Assembly (NCBI GenBank): GCA_947494145.1 | Contig: CANLTZ010000005.1 | Location: 1 to 64,000 of the forward strand | Direction: 5' to 3' | From: an uncultured Jannaschia sp. | GTDB taxonomy: Bacteria > Pseudomonadota > Alphaproteobacteria > Rhodobacterales > Rhodobacteraceae | DNA length: 64,000 bases | Shown: positions 146-8,841 of the stretch, in pieces | How positions within the stretch are numbered: the first letter of the stretch is position 1 | Layout of the letters: the number at the start of each line of letters is the position of its first letter | Notes under the pieces: generated by a model | Told to the model about the DNA's origin: nothing | The model's input: the letters and a program-made list of their open reading frames with translations, nothing else | Databases searched by the model: none | Position numbers and translations under genes: made by a program

Positions 146-1123
146 CTATTTCGCCGCGCGTTCGCGCGGCTGCGGGCGGGTGGGGATTTCGTTGAGCAGA
201 CCGCCCACCCCCATGCCCGCGATATCCCCGTGCGTGACGGCCACGCCGCAGACCAGACGCTCCAACACCCAATCGGCGCCGTTGAGCGCGGGCGACCGGG
301 CGCACCCCGGCAGACCGATCACCTGCGCGCGCCCCAGATCACCAAGAAACAACAGGTTGCCCGGATCGACGGGCATCCCGAAGCGCGTGAGCGTCCCGCC
401 CGCCGCCACGAGCGCCGCGGGGCCCACATCGCGCGGGTCGCAAGTGGCCGAGGCTGTCAAGATAAGGCGCAAGGGCGCTTGTCCGCGCGTCAGCGCCGCA
501 GTCAAGGCACCCGTCTCATGCGGCACCTCGGTGACGTGATGGGCCACGCCCAACCGGTCCAGCCGGGCCAGCACGGGGGCGGTTTTCTCGGGCGCGCCAT
601 CGAGCTTCGTCACGATCAACTCGGCCCGATCGATCGCCGGGCGGTGCAGGCGCAGCGCGCCCGCAGCACCGCTCGGCGGGTCCGGCAGCACGGCTCGATT
701 GGCGAAGAACGAGATGATCTTGACTGTCGCCACCATCATCCCCTCGGTCACGCGCTGCCATTCCGGCAAGGTTGCCACCGTCACCTCATCGGACAGCGCA
801 TTGAGCGCGTCGATCTTGGCGCGCGACACTTCCAACACGCCCGGCCCCGTCGCATGCAGATTGCAGCGACCAGTGAAGGGCGCGCGCGCCTCGATCCCGT
901 CGCTGGCCAGCGCGCAGGCAAGCCAGGCGGCCACCTCGTCTTCGGGAATGTCACCGTCCTGGGGCAGGCAAGCCACTACTTCGGTAAAGCCCGCCGCTTC
1001 CAGCCGGGCGGCCACGGCATCGTCGATCACCGTGCCCTTGCGCACCCGGCCCTCGGGCGTGGCCAGCGAATGGGCCAGCACGCCGCCCCGCGCTCGGTCC
1101 AACGGCATGGGGCCGAAGCTCAT
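146..1123 (-). CDS. Molybdopterin-binding protein (MoCF_biosynth-type domain)
   Basis: 325 residues. The C-terminal half (about 165-310) resembles the MoaB/Mog/MoeA-type molybdopterin-binding fold, with a conserved segment PGNLLFLGDLGRAQVIGLPG followed by CARSPALNGADWVLERL. This form is common next to xdhC and molybdenum hydroxylase genes in alphaproteobacteria, often fused to a MobA-like nucleotidyltransferase; that second domain is absent here. The start codon overlaps the stop of xdhC by four bases (ATGA), so translation is probably coupled, and coxS follows 59 bases downstream. The likely role is handling or modifying the molybdenum cofactor for the cox enzyme in the cytoplasm; the exact reaction is not known from sequence. 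Confidence 0.8.
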   Translation of the reverse strand: MSFGPMPLDRARGGVLAHSLATPEGRVRKGTVIDDAVAARLEAAGFTEVVACLPQDGDIPEDEVAAWLACALASDGIEARAPFTGRCNLHATGPGVLEVSRAKIDALNALSDEVTVATLPEWQRVTEGMMVATVKIISFFANRAVLPDPPSGAAGALRLHRPAIDRAELIVTKLDGAPEKTAPVLARLDRLGVAHHVTEVPHETGALTAALTRGQAPLRLILTASATCDPRDVGPAALVAAGGTLTRFGMPVDPGNLLFLGDLGRAQVIGLPGCARSPALNGADWVLERLVCGVAVTHGDIAGMGVGGLLNEIPTRPQPRERAAK

Positions 1124-2100
1124 GCCGCGCCGCCGGGTTTGCGCAACGCCTGGGTCATGGCCGCCAGGATCGCCACCGCGATTTCGCCGGGACTGCGCGA
1201 CCCGATATCGAGCCCGATGGGCGCATCGAGCCGCGCCAGCGCGTCGGGCGACACCCCCACCGCCGTCAACCGGTCGACCCGTTTGGCATGGGTCCGGGTG
1301 GAACCCAGGGCACCCACGTAAAAGGCCGGGCTGTCCAACGCGATCCGCAAGGCCGGGTCGTCGAGCTTCGGGTCATGGGTCAACAGCACAACGGCCGAGC
1401 GGGTATCGGGTGCGAAGGCAGCCATGGCCTCATCTGGCCAATCGTGAACCAGCGGCGTGTCCGGGAAGCGCGCGGGCGCGGCGAAGGCCTCGCGCGGGTC
1501 GATCACGGTCGCCGCATAGCCCGCCAGCCGCGCCATGGGCACCAGCGCCTGCGCGATATGGACGCCGCCCACAACGGCCAGCCGCAAGGGCGGCGCGTGA
1601 AGCGTCACGAAGGTCTCGCCATCGGGTTCGAAATCGCTGCGATCGCCAGTCAAACGTGTGGACAAGTTGGGTTCATCGACCAGAAAAGTGGTCCCGTTTT
1701 GCACATTTACGGCCTGGCCAACCGCCTCGGACCGCTTTCGCCGGGCCACCAGGTCAGCCAGCAAGTCGGGCGGCAGCGTGCCGCCTACCGGCTCCAACAG
1801 GACCTTGATCGTGCCACCGCAGGCCAAGCCAACGGCGAAGGCTTCGTCGTCACTGACCCCGTATTCCAGCACGCGGTGCTGGCCGTCACCCATGGCATCC
1901 AAGGCTTCGGCCACGACCGCGCCCTCAACGCAACCCCCTGAAACCGAACCGACAATTTCCGCGTTGGCCGAGATCGCCAATTGCGAGCCCCGGGGGCGCG
2001 GCGCGCTGCCCCAGGTTTCGATCACGGTGGCCAAGGCCGCGCCCGTGCCCGCCCGGTGCCATTCCAACGCCGCCTCGGGCGCGCCCTCCAAACGTTCCAT
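1120..2100 (-). CDS. xdhC: XdhC family molybdenum cofactor maturation protein
   Basis: 326 residues. The N-terminal XdhC/CoxI domain has TWGSAPRPRGSQ (about 29-40), GSVSGGCVEGAV (51-62) with Cys57, and GLACGG (91-96) with Cys94. The C-terminal part (about 170-320) is the Rossmann-like XdhC_C domain. Family members bind molybdenum cofactor, promote addition of the terminal sulfur ligand and hand it to a molybdenum hydroxylase. The start has a strong AGGAGG ribosome binding site. It leads the block xdhC, molybdopterin-binding protein, coxS, which supports a dedicated role for the CO dehydrogenase. The CoxI naming used in cox clusters would also fit. Confidence 0.92.
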   Translation of the reverse strand: MERLEGAPEAALEWHRAGTGAALATVIETWGSAPRPRGSQLAISANAEIVGSVSGGCVEGAVVAEALDAMGDGQHRVLEYGVSDDEAFAVGLACGGTIKVLLEPVGGTLPPDLLADLVARRKRSEAVGQAVNVQNGTTFLVDEPNLSTRLTGDRSDFEPDGETFVTLHAPPLRLAVVGGVHIAQALVPMARLAGYAATVIDPREAFAAPARFPDTPLVHDWPDEAMAAFAPDTRSAVVLLTHDPKLDDPALRIALDSPAFYVGALGSTRTHAKRVDRLTAVGVSPDALARLDAPIGLDIGSRSPGEIAVAILAAMTQALRKPGGAA

Positions 2101-2178
2101 GGCCGCTCCTCCTGTGGGAACGTGATACGCCGAAAGCCCCGGCCCCGAAAAGGCACGGCGGGGCCGCCAAGCAAGACG

Positions 2179-2637
2179 TTAACTCCAAGCCCTTGTCAAA
2201 AAGCAATTATTTCGGGCTGAGCGGATATCAACGAAGGCCACCCGCGCATCGGCCAACCGCGCCTCGACCTCTGGGGTTACATCCTGCTTGGGCACAACCG
2301 CCCCGGTGCCATAGAGGATGCGATTGTCTGCGCCATATGCCTTCACCAAATAGTCCGGCGAGGTCTGCAAAGCCGGGGGCGTCCCCTCGCCCTGCCAAGG
2401 TTTGCAGGACTTCTCGCAAAAGAAAATCGGCCCGGTTTCGGCATAGGGCTGGATGTCGGGAAAGGGCCGCGCGGCCAAGATCAGGAAGGACTCGCCCGCC
2501 GGGACGTCTTTCAAGCACGACCGGCATGGCGTGCCTTGGCCCGTGCTGATGGCCCGCTCAGCCGGCTGGCCGTAGGCGTCCGGCCCGCCTGAACGGATTT
2601 TCGCAGTAAAGTCCGGGTCGTAGGGTTCAAATTGCAT
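2179..2637 (-). CDS. DUF1203 domain protein
   Basis: 152 residues, cytoplasmic by appearance. It matches the DUF1203 pattern: a GxPCRSCLKDVPAGE segment near residue 40, a middle block with PYAETGPIFF, and the closing motif DIRSARNNC near the C-terminus. The start at 2637 is chosen over a longer reading because AGGAG lies seven bases upstream of this ATG. It sits between coxE and xdhC on the same strand, so it may be cotranscribed with the cox accessory genes. DUF1203 proteins have no established function; the conserved cysteines suggest a metal or redox role, but that is a guess. Confidence 0.8.
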   Translation of the reverse strand: MQFEPYDPDFTAKIRSGGPDAYGQPAERAISTGQGTPCRSCLKDVPAGESFLILAARPFPDIQPYAETGPIFFCEKSCKPWQGEGTPPALQTSPDYLVKAYGADNRILYGTGAVVPKQDVTPEVEARLADARVAFVDIRSARNNCFLTRAWS

Positions 2638-2759
2638 ATCGCGTCTCCTGCTGTTGCCATCACAGGTCACACGGGGCCCAGGCCGCGCGCGACCCGAATG
2701 CTGCGCCTTATGCGCGGGACACGGCGAACGGTGATGGCGATTGCGAAGGATGGATGCGC

Positions 2760-3989
2760 TTAACGAAGTCGCCCCAACTCACCCACATCATCGGGGCGCG
2801 ACAGAGCCTCGGCCAGCCCTTCCAGGGCGGCGATGGAATGGCCCGCGCGCAGGCTGTCCACATGGGGCAGCATGGCCTGGATGCCCACGGCTTTGGGCGC
2901 GAAGCCATCGAAGCGCAGAAGCGGGTTCAGCCAAATCACCTTGCGGGCCGTCAGATGCAGCCGCTTTGCCTCAAATGCCAGCCGGTCCGGCGCGCCCCGA
3001 TCCAGGCCGTCGGTCACCAGAAGCACCACGGCCCCCTGCCCCAACACCCGGCGGCTCCAATCGCGGTTGAAATCGTGCAGGCACTGGCCGATGCGCGTGC
3101 CCCCCTCCCAATCCTGGGCCTCGGCACCCGCGGCGGCCAGTGCCGCGTCCACGTCGCGGGTGCGCAGGTGGCGCGTGATGTTGGTCAGGCGGGTGCCGAA
3201 GGTGAAGGCATGGACCTCGGCCCAGCCTTGGCCTTGCGCGTTGGAGACCGCGTGCAGAAAATGCAGAAGCGCGCGCGAATAGGACGACATGGACCCCGAG
3301 ATATCGCACAGCGCGACCAGATTTGGCCAACGGGTGCGCTGCTTGCGATGGCGCAGTTCGGTCAGTTCCCCCTTGCGCAGCGCGGCCCGCAACGTGGCCC
3401 GGCGGTCTAGGCGCCCTTGCGGTGACGCGATCCGGCGCCGCGATGGCAGCGGCTTCACCGGCAGGCGCAGCTTCGCCAACATGCGGCGCGCCTGGGCCAT
3501 TTCGGCCACCGACATCTGCTCGAAATCGAGGCTGCGCAAACGCTCCTTCCCACTGGCGGTGGTGGAGGCGTCGATTTCCAACTCCTCCGGCGCCTCGCCC
3601 TCAGGCTCGGGACCAGGCTGGTCGTGCTGAGCCAGCAGCGCTTCGGCGGCGCGCTTTTCAGCGGCCTTGGCGCGGCGCTCTTCCTGCGTGCCGCGGATGG
3701 CGGGGCTGAGCAGGGAAATCATATGTTCCAGATAGCGGGGATCTCGCCAGTAGAGCCGGAAAAGCTGGCGGAAGGTGGCGCGGTGTTCGGGCCGCTGGAC
3801 GAAAACGGCCTCTAGCGCGTGATGGAAATCGTCGCGTTCCGTAAAGCCGGCCTGCGCCACGGCGCGCATGGCCAGAAGCAGCCGATCCGGCCCGGCGGGC
3901 AGACCCGCGCGGCGCAATGCGCCTGCGAAATGGGCGATGTTGTGGGCCAGCCGGGGGTTGTCTGGCAGGGCGATCGGCGCGTGTTCCAT
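2760..3989 (-). CDS. coxE: CoxE-type von Willebrand factor A protein
   Basis: 409 residues. An N-terminal helical region and charged linker (about 100-220) precede a VWA domain at about 222-395. The MIDAS metal site is complete: DISGSMS at 229-235, the threonine of GGTRIG near 298, and TDGLD at 326-330. In CO-oxidising bacteria CoxE works with the AAA+ ATPase CoxD in building the copper-sulfur-molybdenum active site. The matching CoxD gene is on the same strand at 4714-5592, but an opposite-strand gene and a repeat element lie between them. The start ATG at 3989 lies only 14 bases from the edge of the repeat, so its promoter and upstream sequence derive at least partly from that element. Confidence 0.88.
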   Translation of the reverse strand: MEHAPIALPDNPRLAHNIAHFAGALRRAGLPAGPDRLLLAMRAVAQAGFTERDDFHHALEAVFVQRPEHRATFRQLFRLYWRDPRYLEHMISLLSPAIRGTQEERRAKAAEKRAAEALLAQHDQPGPEPEGEAPEELEIDASTTASGKERLRSLDFEQMSVAEMAQARRMLAKLRLPVKPLPSRRRIASPQGRLDRRATLRAALRKGELTELRHRKQRTRWPNLVALCDISGSMSSYSRALLHFLHAVSNAQGQGWAEVHAFTFGTRLTNITRHLRTRDVDAALAAAGAEAQDWEGGTRIGQCLHDFNRDWSRRVLGQGAVVLLVTDGLDRGAPDRLAFEAKRLHLTARKVIWLNPLLRFDGFAPKAVGIQAMLPHVDSLRAGHSIAALEGLAEALSRPDDVGELGRLR

Positions 3990-4002
3990 GGATTGTGATT
4001 AA

Positions 4003-4111
4003 AGCGGTTTTCGAAAAACCTGAATCAGTATTTTCGAAAAACGTCCAGACATCGCATTGACGTTGCACCGTTTCACGAAAAGCTGATGGCTCAGGTTTTT
4101 CGAGAACCGCT
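4003..4111. repeat. 109-bp inverted-repeat element, copy A
   Basis: The ends are 21-base inverted repeats with one mismatch: AGCGGTTTTCGAAAAACC at the left and GGTTTTTCGAGAACCGCT at the right. The interior is also partly palindromic, so the whole unit can fold into a long imperfect hairpin. Copy B at 55425-55533 is the reverse complement with five differences in 109 bases. It has no coding capacity of its own. It looks like a short non-autonomous repeat (MITE- or REP-like) inserted between the start of coxE and the DUF4329 gene. Confidence 0.85.
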
Positions 4112-4188
4112 CTAGCAGGTGACGACTGCCAAGCCCATCTCTGTGACGCGCGCGCAACCCGGTGCGCACCCTATGCAAAGGACGCGCC

Positions 4189-4713
4189 ATGCGCTTGCCT
4201 CTTCTGGCGGCCCTCCTGCTGGCCCTGCCCCTCCCCGCGCTTGCGCAGGATGCGACAATTGTCGCGACGGCGCGCAGCGCCTTGAGCGACTTGCAGACCC
4301 CAAGCTTCCGAGAGGGCCGCGAATTCTGCGGCGTGATCGGGCGCCTTAGGGATGGCAGCCTCGCGATCACCCGGGGCTCAGGTGGCCGCGTCGACAGTTG
4401 TACGCCGCGCGGCTACGGCGCCATGTCCGAAGTGGTGGCCACATTTCACACCCATGGGTCTTACGCGCCAGAATTCGACAACGAAGTTCCGTCGCTTACG
4501 GATTTGCTCGTCGTCATGGCAGAGCGTGTGGATGGCTTCGTATCGACGCCGGGCGGGCGCTTTTGGTATGTGGACGGTATCCGGGGCGAGATCAGGCTGA
4601 TCTGCGGTCCGGGCTGTTTGCCCCAGGATCCCCGCTATGTGGATGATGAAGAGATACCCGAATATCTGGACCTGAACGGGCTGCGCGCGCGCACCCGGTT
4701 CATGATGCGGTAG
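4189..4713 (+). CDS. Secreted DUF4329 (JAB-like) protein
   Basis: 174 residues starting at the ATG at 4189, which gives a clean signal peptide (MRLPLLAALLLALPLPALAQ) and has AAGGA upstream. The mature part matches DUF4329: FCGVIGRL, then FHTHGSY with a His-x-His pair, then PSLTDL. The His-x-His plus Ser-x-x-Asp arrangement resembles the JAMM metal-binding motif of JAB proteases, so zinc binding is plausible but unproven. It is transcribed against the cox genes, its stop codon abuts the coxD stop (4713/4714), and it separates coxD from coxE. Similar domains occur in polymorphic toxin systems; here no toxin partner is visible. Confidence 0.75.
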   Translation: MRLPLLAALLLALPLPALAQDATIVATARSALSDLQTPSFREGREFCGVIGRLRDGSLAITRGSGGRVDSCTPRGYGAMSEVVATFHTHGSYAPEFDNEVPSLTDLLVVMAERVDGFVSTPGGRFWYVDGIRGEIRLICGPGCLPQDPRYVDDEEIPEYLDLNGLRARTRFMMR

Positions 4714-5592
4714 TCACGCGATTTCGGCGCGCACTTCGTCAAGGATACGTTTCGCTTCCGACCCCTGCAGTTTCTGGATATCGTCTTGATATTTCAGGAT
4801 CGCACCCAGCGTGTCGGCAATCACTTCCGGGGATAGCTCGATCATGTCGAGCGCCAGAAGACACTTCGCCCAGTCAAGCGTCTCGGCCACGCCGGGGCGC
4901 TTGAACAAGTCTTCGGTGCGCAATTTCTGGACGAAAGCCACTACTTCGCGGCTAAGCGCCTCGGATGCTTCCGGCGCGCGGGCGGCCACGATCTGCATCT
5001 CGCGTTCATGGCTTGGGTAGTCGACCCAATGGTACAGGCAGCGCCGTTTGAGCGCATCGTGAACTTCGCGCGTGCGGTTTGACGTCAGGATAACGATGGG
5101 CGGTTCGGGCGCCTTGATCGTGCCGGTTTCGGGGATGGTGACTTGGAAGTCAGACAGCGCCTCAAGCAAGAAGGCCTCAAAGGGCGCATCGGTTCGGTCG
5201 ATTTCGTCGATCAGGAGAACGGGGGGGCCCGCTGGATCAGGCCGCATGGCTTCGAGCAAGGGCCGGGCGATCAGGAAGTCGTCGGAAAAGAGGTCTGGCG
5301 CCGCCGTGCCGGCCGCTTCCGCCTGGCGAATGGCCATCATCTGACGGGCGAAATTCCATTCGTAGACGGCACTGGCGGCATCGAGCCCTTCATAGCATTG
5401 CAGCCGGATCAGACGTCGGCCCAAAGCGGCGGCGATGGCCTTGGCGATTTCGGTTTTGCCTGTTCCCGCCTCCCCTTCGAGAAAGAGCGGTCGGTTGAGG
5501 CGGAGCGACAAGAACGTGACGGTCGCGAGCGCCCTTCCACAGACATAGTTCTGTTCCGCAAGGGCAGCTTGGACGTCGTCGATCGAATTCAT
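4714..5592 (-). CDS. coxD: CoxD-type MoxR family AAA+ ATPase
   Basis: 292 residues from the ATG at 5592; a GTG nine codons upstream is possible but has no better ribosome binding site. The Walker A is GEAGTGKT (40-47), the Walker B LLIDEIDR, and sensor 1 TSNRTRE. It belongs to the MoxR group, in which an AAA+ protein pairs with a VWA protein to remodel a target enzyme. CoxD of CO oxidisers is needed for insertion of sulfur and copper into the molybdenum site of CO dehydrogenase. Its partner CoxE lies further along the strand but not adjacent, so normal operon coupling may be broken. It acts at the inner face of the membrane or in the cytoplasm. Confidence 0.88.
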   Translation of the reverse strand: MNSIDDVQAALAEQNYVCGRALATVTFLSLRLNRPLFLEGEAGTGKTEIAKAIAAALGRRLIRLQCYEGLDAASAVYEWNFARQMMAIRQAEAAGTAAPDLFSDDFLIARPLLEAMRPDPAGPPVLLIDEIDRTDAPFEAFLLEALSDFQVTIPETGTIKAPEPPIVILTSNRTREVHDALKRRCLYHWVDYPSHEREMQIVAARAPEASEALSREVVAFVQKLRTEDLFKRPGVAETLDWAKCLLALDMIELSPEVIADTLGAILKYQDDIQKLQGSEAKRILDEVRAEIA

Positions 5593-5911
5593 GACCGCAT
5601 GGGGCACGAAGCGGCCCACGGGGTCAACCGGAGATCGGCACGGCGCTGAGACGACCTTTGGCCAGCGTTGCCCTGACTATGTTCAACCGACATCCGCCGC
5701 TTCGGGGGTCGCGGTCAGCAAGGGCACTGAACACCTAGTGGTTGCCAAAGGGACGGGACAGTCCGTCTGTCAGATCGATTTTGCCGGCGGTCAAACCGGC
5801 GAACGTGTCGCGACCCTTCAGGCGCAGTCGTGTCGGTCCAGTGCCTCTGATCAAAGGCTCGCGCCCGGGGGGCGCAGGACCATTGGCAGCGGACTGTCTT
5901 CGGTGAACCCG
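5593..5911. other. Intergenic region upstream of coxD
   Basis: No gene of convincing quality is seen. It must hold the coxD promoter and the end of the receptor transcript, both on the minus strand. A short hairpin at 5861-5875 (GCGCCC, GGG, GGGCGC) follows the receptor gene but lacks a clear T-tract. No recognisable operator or riboswitch was identified. Confidence 0.4.
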
Positions 5912-8743
5912 TTAAGCCGCAAACCTTTTCGCTGGGTCTGGAAGCCGAAATGTCGAGATCAGCTTTCGGGATTGGCCAGCATCTGTTGACAAGGCCCGGG
6001 CGGTCTTGTCAGCTTCGGCGGCAAGGTCGAGCCCCTCCTTCGCGCCGCTTTCGATCTCCCGGACGGCGCCGCCAATTTCAGATACGCGTTCCGCTTGCGC
6101 GCCGCCCATCTCGCTCAGAGTGCCGGAAAGCTCGGACGCATCGGTCACGGCATCCAGGATCGCCCCCAAGCTGGCGCGGACGAGGTCCACCCGCTCGCGC
6201 CCGGTGGCGAAGGCCTTGCTCATCATTTCCGCGCGCTCTTGGATTTCTCCAACCACTTCGGCGGTCTGGTTTGCGAGGCCCCGCACTTCTTCCGCAACGA
6301 CGCGGAAACCGGTTTGACCTGCCTGGCGCGACGCTTCGACCGACGCATTCACGGCAAGCAGATTGGTCCGGAAAGCGATTTCGCCGATCTGCTCGACGGA
6401 GGCGGCAATCTCGCGGGCAGCGCGGTCCATTTCCAGCATTTGCTGAGCCGCTTCTGTTGCCAATTTGTCCCCTTTGCGCGCGGCCGACTGGGCCCCAGCA
6501 CAATGCTCAGCGGTGCGTTGCGACGTTTCGGCGCCGTCCGAGGCCATTTTATCGATGAGCGTCAACGCTTCGACCGCGGAGTTCATCAGGCTTGCCTGTT
6601 CGGCCGAGCGTGCATGAATGCGACCGCTGGAATGTAGCGTTTTCTCTGAGCTTTCGGCGACATGGTCGGCGACCTGCGACAGGCCCGAAATGACATCCGA
6701 CAGAGTCCGTGTTGCGCGCCTGACATCGGCGGCAAGCGCTGCAAAGCGGCCCTTATGGCTGTCTTCCATCTCAGCGGTGAGATCGCCATTCGCAAGGACC
6801 GACAGAACCCGGCCAAGGTCATCAAGACCGCGTTCGCAAGACATCGAGACGGAGTTCACGCCTTCGCAAAGCTCCAGAAAGAAGCCTTGGCGCCCCTCTG
6901 TCGACAACCGTGCTGAAAAATCGCCGTTCGACGCGGCACCGACAGCGTGCTGCAGGTCGGTCACGGTTGCCGTCAGTTCGCCCAAAGTGGCATTCACCGT
7001 CTCGGCGATCCGGCCCATGAGCCCGCCACGATCATCGTTGACCCGGACGCTTAGGTCACCGTTTGCAAGCGCCGTCATGGCCCTTTCAACCGATGTAAGG
7101 CTTTCGGCCGTGACATCGCAAAGGCGGTTCAGGCGCTCTGCCATTTCGAGTTCAAACCCCTCGCGATTTTCGACCTCCAGACGCCGGTCGAAATGTCCTG
7201 CGGCACAGGCGTCGATGATTTCACCGACATCGCGTTGCATTGCCGCATGGCGCGCAAGCTCTGCCTTGGCCGCAGCGGCTTCTTCTTGGCGGCGTTGTTG
7301 GATTTTCTCGATAATTCGGTTGAACAGGACAGACATCTCATAAGCGTCGTCGCCATGTTCAAGCATGATGGGCTCAATATCGGCACCGTCATTCCGCGCA
7401 ACCTTGGCCATGGCAGCCGTCAGAATGCCCGACCCCATGGGCGCGTCATGTTCATGGCTATTGAGGCCTTCACGTTCGGCTTCGGCGGTCACGCGGAAAC
7501 GGCGATTGCCGTCGGGGCCTGCGGGCAGGATATGTGCCGCAACGCGCAGCAAGGCGTAGGCCACGGTAAACGCCCAAACGAACACGACAATCCCCCCTCC
7601 GAATTGAACCGCCACCTGGGTGAGCCGATCAGCGGTGAGGAGGGCGTCTTCACGGGCGAGGATACCCGTCATGATGAGGCCAAAGAAACCGGCAGCGCCA
7701 TGGACGGAAATCGCCTGGAGTGGGTCGTCAATCTTGAAGGCACGTTCCAACATCTCAGCACAAAGAAAGACCACGGCACCGCCGCCGACGCCGATCAGCA
7801 TGGCGTTTTGGGCCGTCACCGCATCGGCACCTGCGGTGACAGCGACGAGCCCCCCGATCAAGCCGTTGATTGCCTGCTCGGGCCGGAAATGCCCTGTGCG
7901 AATACGACCGATGACCGTGACCGCGAGGCCACCGCAGGCCCCGGCAATCATGGTGTTCATGACCACGTGAGCAAATGCTTCGGTGCCCGCCGTCGTGGAC
8001 CCCCCATTGAAACCGATCCAACCAACCCAGATGAGAAGCGCACCCATGGTGGACAGGACCGGCGAATGGCCGTGCAGCACCCGCGGCTTGCCATTCTCGT
8101 CGAACTTGTCGGAGCGCGGCCCCACGATCAGAACTGCGGCCAGCGCGACGGCAGCGCCAGTCATGTGCACCACCGCACCGCCCGCAAAATCAATGAGGCC
8201 CCAGGCAGCGAGGAACGGCGTTTCGTCGCCCGAAAGTATCCCGCCCCACACCCAGTGGCCCACTGTCGGGTAGATGATAAGCCCAACCATGGCGGTGCAG
8301 GTGATATAGCCCATCATGCTCATCCGTTCGGCCACGGCGCCCGACACAATGGTCGCCGCCGTTCCACAGAACATCAGTTGGAACACGAAGAAGGTCATGT
8401 GCCATTTGTCGGTGGCGCCGTAAAACAGTGCGTCGCTATCCCACCCGATCCATCCGCTGATGCTGCTGCCGAACATCAGGGTGAAACCGACGGCCCCGAA
8501 GACGACAGTCGAAACGATGAAGTCGATCAGGTTCTTTTGCGCGACATTGACGGAGTTCTTTGACCGCACATGCCCGGCTTCAAGAAGCAGGAATCCAGCT
8601 TGCATCAAGAAAACCAAGCCAGCTGCCGTCATCGTCCAGACGTGATCAAGATTGGTTTGCAGCGCAAAACGGTCAGGCTGGGCGTGAACCGGAAGTGCAG
8701 CAAGACCCAGCATGAGGCAGGCCAGTCCAAGGATCAGCTTCAT
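5912..8743 (-). CDS. Ammonium transporter-poly-HAMP-methyl-accepting chemotaxis fusion protein
   Basis: 943 residues from the ATG at 8743. After a signal peptide (to about 22) comes a full-length Amt domain (about 25-405). It has the pore motifs expected of the family: FQLMFCGTAATI, GHWVWGG, the first histidine in GGAVVHMTG (His193) and the second in SVHGAAGFFG (His348). The Amt C-terminal tail signature EREGLNSHEH is retained near 425-435. A coiled linker follows, then four HAMP-like repeats marked by AxGxFD/ANGDL/SNGDF/ANGDL at about 514-680, then an MCP signalling domain (about 690-935) with the hairpin tip IGEIAFRTNLLAVNASVEAS. The protein should sense or transport ammonium and signal to CheA/CheW. 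No che gene is in the window. A GTG three codons upstream is an alternative start. Confidence 0.9.
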   Translation of the reverse strand: MKLILGLACLMLGLAALPVHAQPDRFALQTNLDHVWTMTAAGLVFLMQAGFLLLEAGHVRSKNSVNVAQKNLIDFIVSTVVFGAVGFTLMFGSSISGWIGWDSDALFYGATDKWHMTFFVFQLMFCGTAATIVSGAVAERMSMMGYITCTAMVGLIIYPTVGHWVWGGILSGDETPFLAAWGLIDFAGGAVVHMTGAAVALAAVLIVGPRSDKFDENGKPRVLHGHSPVLSTMGALLIWVGWIGFNGGSTTAGTEAFAHVVMNTMIAGACGGLAVTVIGRIRTGHFRPEQAINGLIGGLVAVTAGADAVTAQNAMLIGVGGGAVVFLCAEMLERAFKIDDPLQAISVHGAAGFFGLIMTGILAREDALLTADRLTQVAVQFGGGIVVFVWAFTVAYALLRVAAHILPAGPDGNRRFRVTAEAEREGLNSHEHDAPMGSGILTAAMAKVARNDGADIEPIMLEHGDDAYEMSVLFNRIIEKIQQRRQEEAAAAKAELARHAAMQRDVGEIIDACAAGHFDRRLEVENREGFELEMAERLNRLCDVTAESLTSVERAMTALANGDLSVRVNDDRGGLMGRIAETVNATLGELTATVTDLQHAVGAASNGDFSARLSTEGRQGFFLELCEGVNSVSMSCERGLDDLGRVLSVLANGDLTAEMEDSHKGRFAALAADVRRATRTLSDVISGLSQVADHVAESSEKTLHSSGRIHARSAEQASLMNSAVEALTLIDKMASDGAETSQRTAEHCAGAQSAARKGDKLATEAAQQMLEMDRAAREIAASVEQIGEIAFRTNLLAVNASVEASRQAGQTGFRVVAEEVRGLANQTAEVVGEIQERAEMMSKAFATGRERVDLVRASLGAILDAVTDASELSGTLSEMGGAQAERVSEIGGAVREIESGAKEGLDLAAEADKTARALSTDAGQSRKLISTFRLPDPAKRFAA

Positions 8744-8808
8744 TCTCTCCACATCCGGTCATTGGAAGATTTTGGAAGCTATGGAGTATGAAGGCCTAAT
8801 ATTTCGTA

Positions 8809-8841
8809 AAGCCCGAGCGCATCAAAGACGCGCTCGGGCTT
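8809..8841 (-). terminator. Rho-independent terminator after yceI
   Basis: A perfect 12-bp stem AAGCCCGAGCGC / GCGCTCGGGCTT with a 9-base loop lies just past the stop of the minus-strand yceI gene. The T-run after the stem on that strand is short (TTTACG), so efficiency may be moderate. Confidence 0.75.

Follow-up and report, generated by a model that had tools for sequence, protein, structure and literature searches.

A minus-strand gene of an uncultured Jannaschia fuses Amt, HAMP and MCP modules and is a candidate ammonium chemoreceptor with an altered hairpin tip

We examined a 64,000-nucleotide stretch of DNA from an uncultured Jannaschia sp. (positions 1 to 64,000 of contig CANLTZ010000005.1; hereafter the window) and found that a gene on its minus strand, amt-mcp (5912..8743), joins an ammonium transporter (Amt) domain to a HAMP stalk and an MCP signalling hairpin. 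From comparisons of residues, models and genomes, we judge it fairly likely that its product is an ammonium chemoreceptor whose tip has been remodelled. What is new here is the pairing of a sensor-type Amt with a chemoreceptor output whose tip is unusual; the sensor-Amt principle itself is known. The gene is widely distributed and offers a concrete candidate for a chemoreceptor dedicated to ammonium, and it would extend the sensor-Amt principle from kinase to chemotaxis.

A single frame with Amt, HAMP and MCP modules

The fusion of Amt, HAMP and MCP modules in a single frame is real. The minus-strand frame is open from 8743 to 5912 and comprises 943 codons plus a stop when read from ATG 8743, or 946 codons from GTG 8752, both of which are in frame, in line with the GTG/ATG start given in a first-pass annotation of this DNA. 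That annotation had located the gene at 5912-8743, coordinates that hold, but it left the strand unstated; the plus strand over the same interval contains six stops. The Pfam search that it proposed returned three families above their cut-offs, with Ammonium_transp (PF00909) at residues 35-434 (336.3 bits versus a cut-off of 23.2, E 2.8e-100), HAMP_2 at residues 619-674 (38 bits versus 24.3, E 1.6e-9) and MCPsignal at residues 748-902 (70 bits versus 34.6, E 2.9e-19). An AlphaFold2 model, built from an input alignment of 25 sequences including the amt-mcp protein (mean pLDDT 79.3, pTM 0.53), contained an Amt bundle, four HAMP-like helix-break-helix units and an antiparallel hairpin of helices 666-806 and 811-930, with confidence dropping at the hairpin turn and over the first HAMP units.

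An assembly or frame artefact that merged two genes is so improbable as to be negligible. The 943-codon frame carries Pfam matches on both halves, and the identical fusion recurs on numerous further contigs, named isolates among them; these homologues rule out an artefact or a split gene, for which no support was found. Among the candidates that it scored, a whole-protein search returned 1275 proteins at E <= 0.001. Both Pfam families are present in 118 of the 120 best listed homologues, a set that includes the amt-mcp protein itself, one kinase fusion and one fragment, and the architecture can therefore be ascribed neither to chance nor to assembly error. The same count does not support the earlier description of an Amt-MCP protein as uncommon.

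Between the two ends lies a probable four-HAMP stalk of consecutive HAMP-like units (about residues 498-690; 6674..7252, minus strand), predicted from the Pfam HAMP_2 and HAMP matches, the model and a repeat motif. The helix breaks of the four modelled units fall at residues 515-529, 561-575, 606-620 and 652-665, the first two units lying in a stretch of low-to-middling confidence (block pLDDT ~56-72). A pattern search found the repeat motif in three of the four units, and the motif of the third unit was read by eye. The four HAMPs proposed at first reading are present as four units in the model, but a single match passes its curated Pfam cut-off, the HAMP at residues 549-591 staying below. 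The homologues can be grouped by the distance that separates the Amt VH motif from the tip (mostly 448-457 in the proteins P0001-P0042, 358 for two, and either 309-310 or 340 for others), a pattern to be expected if HAMP units had been gained or lost. In a comparison with poly-HAMP receptors, the HAMP-MCP part scored 166 bits against the Vibrio Aer2 model, under the cut-off of 1200.

A sensor-type Amt domain with a putative ammonium pocket

The Amt domain (residues 35-434; 7442..8641, minus strand) looks like a sensor-type Amt, as its residues resemble those of a known sensor rather than those of the comparison Amts described below. With the Amt part as query, phmmer against the PDB scored Ks-Amt5, a sensor histidine kinase of Kuenenia stuttgartiensis (6eu6), at 269.5 bits and Sd-Amt1 of Shewanella denitrificans (8qj3/8qpf) at 267 bits, followed by Af-Amt1 (152.5 bits), Mep2 (~109) and AmtB (~99 and below, most AmtB entries at 92-99). 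Foldseek placed the sensor entries 6eu6, 8qj3, 8qj4 and 8qpf at ranks 1-4, with titles such as 'Receptor Sd-Amt1' and 'Sensor Amt Protein'. Sd-Amt1, whose entries 8qj3, 8qj4 and 8qpf carry OFF-state and ON-state titles, is the best Foldseek match and the near-equal best by sequence; its output module, which we take to be a diguanylate cyclase, is unlike that of the Amt-MCP.

According to PMC5764959, Ks-Amt5 binds NH4+ without translocating it efficiently, holding two NH4+ ions in a membrane-buried pocket of Q24, E31, N47, D50, T51, T109 and T112. These residues align to Q48, E55, N71, D74, F75, T131 and S134 of the amt-mcp protein, so that six of the seven are matched (T112 as S) and T51 is replaced by F75, a phenylalanine shared with Sd-Amt1. 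We regard Q48, E55, N71, D74, T131 and S134 (8342..8602, minus strand) as a putative buried NH4+ pocket, from this alignment and from conservation. The Q, E, N and D residues occur together in 119 of the 120 best listed homologues, the remaining one being gapped there, as well as in all 37 Amt-MCP loci used (of 39), all 35 Amt-GGDEF loci and all 6 other loci, classes that were sorted by motif rather than by Pfam. The set was found in none of 30 comparison Amts, the top-scoring PF00909 matches in 61 genomes of the same family, unscreened for extra domains; two of these frames are longer (628 and 918 residues), and a ranking by the general model may favour ordinary transporters. None of the four residues is present in E. 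coli AmtB.

Beyond the pocket and the signalling module at the C-terminus, the Amt-MCP resembles Ks-Amt5 in its selectivity filter and pore histidine pair, while it differs in that Ks-Amt5 has a histidine kinase output without HAMP and carries T51, Y30 and F34 in place of F75, L54 and H58. The selectivity filter, the Phe gate and both pore histidines are intact, and the latter, noted in the first-pass annotation, are confirmed as H193 (8167-8165) and H348 (7702-7700), together spanning 7700..8167 on the minus strand. AmtB-type transporters and the second Amt of the same genome share the Amt fold, the filter, the Phe gate and the His pair, but AmtB lacks the pocket residues, the second Amt has E and N only, and neither has a signalling domain. 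The second Amt adjoins a P-II gene, while none was present among the scanned neighbours of amt-mcp; the AmtB-type profile of an unfused, P-II-linked protein without an acidic pocket fits this second Amt instead of the Amt-MCP. The earlier view that the transporter itself is the sensor should probably give way, as the domain carries a Ks-Amt5-type pocket unlike the comparison Amts and a separate Amt stands beside P-II.

The same pocket is shared by numerous Amt proteins that bear GGDEF and EAL motifs (L068-L111, 35 by pattern; genomes, contigs and loci are given by our handles G, C and L), which are probable ammonium-sensing cyclic-di-GMP enzymes. Two unfused Amts with the sensor pocket lie side by side, with CheY-like sequence nearby, in each of two genomes (L025 and L026; G141 and G200), and these pairs are perhaps split ammonium sensors.

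The hairpin tip and the association with CheA

The MCP signalling hairpin (helices 666-806 and 811-930; 5954..6748, minus strand) is of Tsr length. In a pairwise alignment, residues 649-938 matched Tsr 231-521 with a single internal gap, which falls exactly at the turn (residues 807-811; 6311..6325, minus strand), one residue under the canonical MCP tip. The spacer from the N-A-x-V-E motif to GF-x-VVA is 8 residues where the canonical tip has 9, and Tsr E391 aligns to a glycine and G393 to the gap, so that the tip departs from the canonical one in both length and sequence. By this comparison, the product is a divergent MCP-type transducer and not a canonical MCP. It differs from Tsr also in its sensor, which is the Amt domain, and in having lost three of five methylation positions. 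The altered tip, its most unusual feature, had been overlooked in the first-pass annotation.

Upon measuring the spacer in other proteins, we found 9 residues in 115 of 119 non-Amt MCPs (the matches of a search with the HAMP-MCP part as query), the other four being unmeasurable, that is, in 115 of 115 measurable ones. This search listed no further Amt fusions, probably owing to its word pre-filter, and was used solely to supply the non-Amt comparison set. In five genomes with non-canonical Amt-MCPs, 26 of the 30 MCP loci fetched (of 56 matches) had a spacer of 9, and the other four comprised one Amt-MCP (16), one short protein (10) and two unmeasurable ones. A short MCP-like frame of 249 residues with a spacer of 10 (L176, G295:C15) was noted in the genome of locus L032. 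Among P0001-P0054 the spacer was 8 (2 proteins), 9 (12), 10 (16), 11 (4), 12 (8), 13 (6), 14 (2) and 15, 16 and 17 (1 each), with one missed, and among P0055-P0120 it was 9 (61), 10 (1) and 11 (1), with three unmeasured. On a quick IQ-TREE phylogeny of the Amt domains, from an alignment in which the tip columns were unused, all 44 non-canonical tips fell within one side of 58 rows (SH-aLRT 100), while the other 60 Amt-MCP rows all had a spacer of 9. Within this clade, to which the amt-mcp protein belongs, the spacer ranges from 8 to 17 and is not 9 in 44 of 58 rows, and on the tree the spacer must have switched between 9 and other values at least 6 times and changed its length at least 20 times.

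The flanks of the tip behave differently from its end. All MCP-module columns kept at >=93% in the clade lie within residues 779-824, the tip arms, and include the equivalents of Tsr N381, E385, R388, G395, F396, E402 and R404. At the position equivalent to N376, Asn is found in 35% of P0001-P0054, in 79% of P0055-P0120 and in 98% of the non-Amt set. A missing equivalent of Tsr F373 was considered as a sign of a lost trimer contact and rejected, since canonical-tip Amt-MCPs are also without it and the amt-mcp protein keeps it. Trimer contacts and determinants of CheA/CheW binding lie near the MCP tip, as described in PMC4692393. A literature search on insertions in receptor tips yielded papers on arrays. 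We read the conserved flanks as suggesting that the hairpin still docks to a conserved partner, in the simplest case CheA/CheW, while the tip end has been remodelled.

On contig C14 of the same genome, genes for CheA, CheW, CheR and a receiver protein are clustered, and genome-wide there are one CheA, eight MCPsignal matches, one flagellin and two Bac_export_1 (FliR family) matches. No che gene was found among the scanned neighbours of amt-mcp, and the cluster on C14 bears out the earlier statement that the partner CheA/CheW lies elsewhere; a Che-type output, also proposed there, still appears the likeliest. In a sample of the family, CheA was present in 6 of 6 Amt-MCP genomes versus 140 of 295 overall, with a one-sided probability of ~0.01 (by hand arithmetic, with relatedness uncorrected). 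Among the named loci (80), CheA was found in 12 of 12 genomes tried, the MCP tip being in the locus for 10 of these 12. Two of the ten named genomes share CheA coordinates with G024 and G127 and were counted as duplicates, giving CheA in 14 of 14 distinct Amt-MCP genomes, six of which have non-canonical tips (G000, G024, G127 and the genomes of L032, L036 and L038). CheA loss, which would have pointed to a non-Che output, was not seen in any of the 14. The sole family-sample genome with a fused Amt and no CheA (G054) has a kinase-type output, as read from the sequence without Pfam. At L012 (G000:C31), a small contig that also has transposase-like sequence by eye, a CheW-like stretch covering the first 48 profile positions only lies beside an MCP gene.

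Two relatives are linked to che genes. In G017 (L112), genes for CheB, a HEAT-repeat protein, CheR, a receiver, CheA, a second receiver and a protein without Pfam match precede an Amt-MCP that is cut by the contig end, and at L039 a receiver, CheB, CheR and a stretch without Pfam match precede the Amt-MCP. A FastTree phylogeny of 156 Amt parts placed G017 and L039 outside the clade and L032-L038 inside; as both linked relatives fall outside, we withdrew che-cluster linkage as evidence for the clade of the amt-mcp protein. CheA coupling is best supported for the canonical-tip group, and for the amt-mcp clade it is co-occurrence alone that points to it.

Proposed mechanism, rival readings and genomic context

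From these comparisons we infer a receptor that binds ammonium, does not transport it and is coupled to CheA, and to which ammonium may be an attractant or a repellent. The Amt domain would have been converted from a transporter to a receptor, in which NH4+ would pass the intact selectivity filter and lodge in the pocket of Q48, E55, N71, D74, T131 and S134 without crossing the membrane. Binding would move loop 5 and the C-terminal tail, as PMC5764959 proposes for Ks-Amt5, and then the linker helix, and the signal would travel along the four HAMP units into the Tsr-length MCP hairpin. The hairpin would set the activity of the genome's single CheA via CheW, with CheY acting on the flagellar motor. 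Because Amt proteins are trimeric and MCP hairpins are dimers that assemble in threes, two Amt trimers with three hairpin dimers could supply exactly one trimer of dimers. This meeting of a trimeric Amt and dimeric hairpins, together with the variable tip, offers a natural test of which parts of the tip signalling arrays need. A link between the tip change and the Amt trimer is an idea: the trimer might fix the threefold geometry and so free the tip length, and the freed turn might engage the CheA/CheW baseplate or another partner through a new, lineage-specific contact, which we hold to be doubtful. The Amt alone is not the cause of the tip change, because the 60 other Amt-MCP rows keep the canonical length. 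If true, this idea would imply a chemoreceptor class with a new docking mode.

Several observations weigh against an ammonium chemoreceptor. The tip, normally the most conserved part of an MCP, is altered here and variable in length within the clade, and Glu or Gln is missing from three of the five Tsr methylation positions: Tsr Q297, E304, Q311, E493 and E502 align to E715, S722, L729, E910 and S919. With Glu kept at two of the five (E715 and E910), adaptation may be limited or may use other sites. The CheA association is uncorrected for phylogeny and its background comes from one family sample, and the che-linked Amt-MCPs of G017 and L039 have canonical tip spacing and sit outside the amt-mcp clade. 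On the sensor side, Ks-Amt5 T51 is F75 and the pore blockers Y30 and F34 are L54 and H58; unfused Amts of G141 and G200 also have the pocket, which is therefore not exclusive to fusions and, by sequence, is a mark of a sensor-like Amt subfamily rather than of the fusion itself. Finally, the gene occurs in 2 of 20 genomes of the genus, this one included (the other with an Amt-MCP frame of 976 residues), which points to frequent gain or loss.

Part of this evidence could be read to mean that the clade's hairpin no longer drives a standard CheA array, being instead a vestigial oligomerisation stalk or serving another partner, with an output other than chemotaxis. The spacer of 8-17 in the clade versus 9 elsewhere, the low share of Asn at the N376 equivalent versus the non-Amt set and the position of the che-linked relatives all suit this reading, as does the rank of the Amt-MCP among the weakest near-full-length MCP matches in five genomes (though it is not the weakest in G024). 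We nevertheless consider it unlikely, as CheA is present in 6 of 6 checked genomes with non-canonical tips and the tip arms hold the most conserved columns of the MCP module. A conserved neighbour as the alternative partner was sought and rejected, no family besides the Amt fusion being present in more than 3 of the 26 loci compared. A further reading, implied by the first-pass annotation, is that the Amt domain still transports and that the fusion reports transport, as a transceptor would. The intact filter, Phe gate and pore histidines agree with it, and the side chains that block the pore in Ks-Amt5 are replaced here; yet Ks-Amt5 also keeps these pore residues and, according to PMC5764959, does not translocate efficiently, and the acidic buried pocket and the separate Amt adjoining P-II also argue against it, leaving a transceptor distinctly improbable. 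The ammonium chemoreceptor with a remodelled tip remains the reading that we prefer.

Named Amt-MCP loci include those of Jannaschia pohangensis, Roseobacter, Rhodovulum, Thioclava, Rhodospira, Azospirillum and Terasakiella (MCP tips recognised by pattern, with Pfam run for six), and where named, the listed homologues are mostly annotated as transporters. In the family sample, at least 11 of 295 genomes matched at E <= 1e-60 (two candidates per genome scored); as read from the sequences, nine of these 11 are fusions, of which six end in an MCP, one in GGDEF-EAL, one in a kinase and one in a cyclase, and two are unfused. Two of the fusions join Amt to a nucleotide-cyclase-like part (L029, G185) and to a kinase-receiver part (L028, G054). 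Nine Amt-MCPs carry an additional PilZ domain (PF07238; P0055, P0056, P0066, P0067, P0069, P0070, P0073, P0074 and P0076), which suggests a combined ammonium and cyclic-di-GMP input. Within the open-licence PMC literature, we found no paper on an Amt-MCP protein and none on Sd-Amt1; a 2009 review by Tremblay and Hallenbeck may list fusions of the Amt-MCP type. The word chemotaxis is absent from the available main text of the review PMC10433425, and the accessible passages of PMC12918730 and PMC8534201 name Ks-Amt5 alone as a fused sensor. Combinations of Amt modules with further domains were already known, as PMC5764959 states. Amt-MCPs form a large, apparently unstudied family.

In the window, a terminator-like hairpin with a GC-rich stem, a 9-base loop and a short T run (8807..8840, minus strand) was recognised by eye, a terminator scan giving no report. 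It stands between the upstream yceI-like gene and amt-mcp, and because it splits the two, it suggests that amt-mcp is a separate transcript. No match to a sigma-54 promoter was found near the gene, and the window holds 2 matches (<=1 mismatch) versus 2.7 expected; a sigma-54 promoter for nitrogen control was rejected on this ground. Downstream, and with no evident link to amt-mcp, positions 1123-5619 on the minus strand encode an AAA ATPase, a CoxE-type VWA protein, a DUF1203 protein and an XdhC/CoxI protein, genes of a type that accompanies molybdenum hydroxylases.

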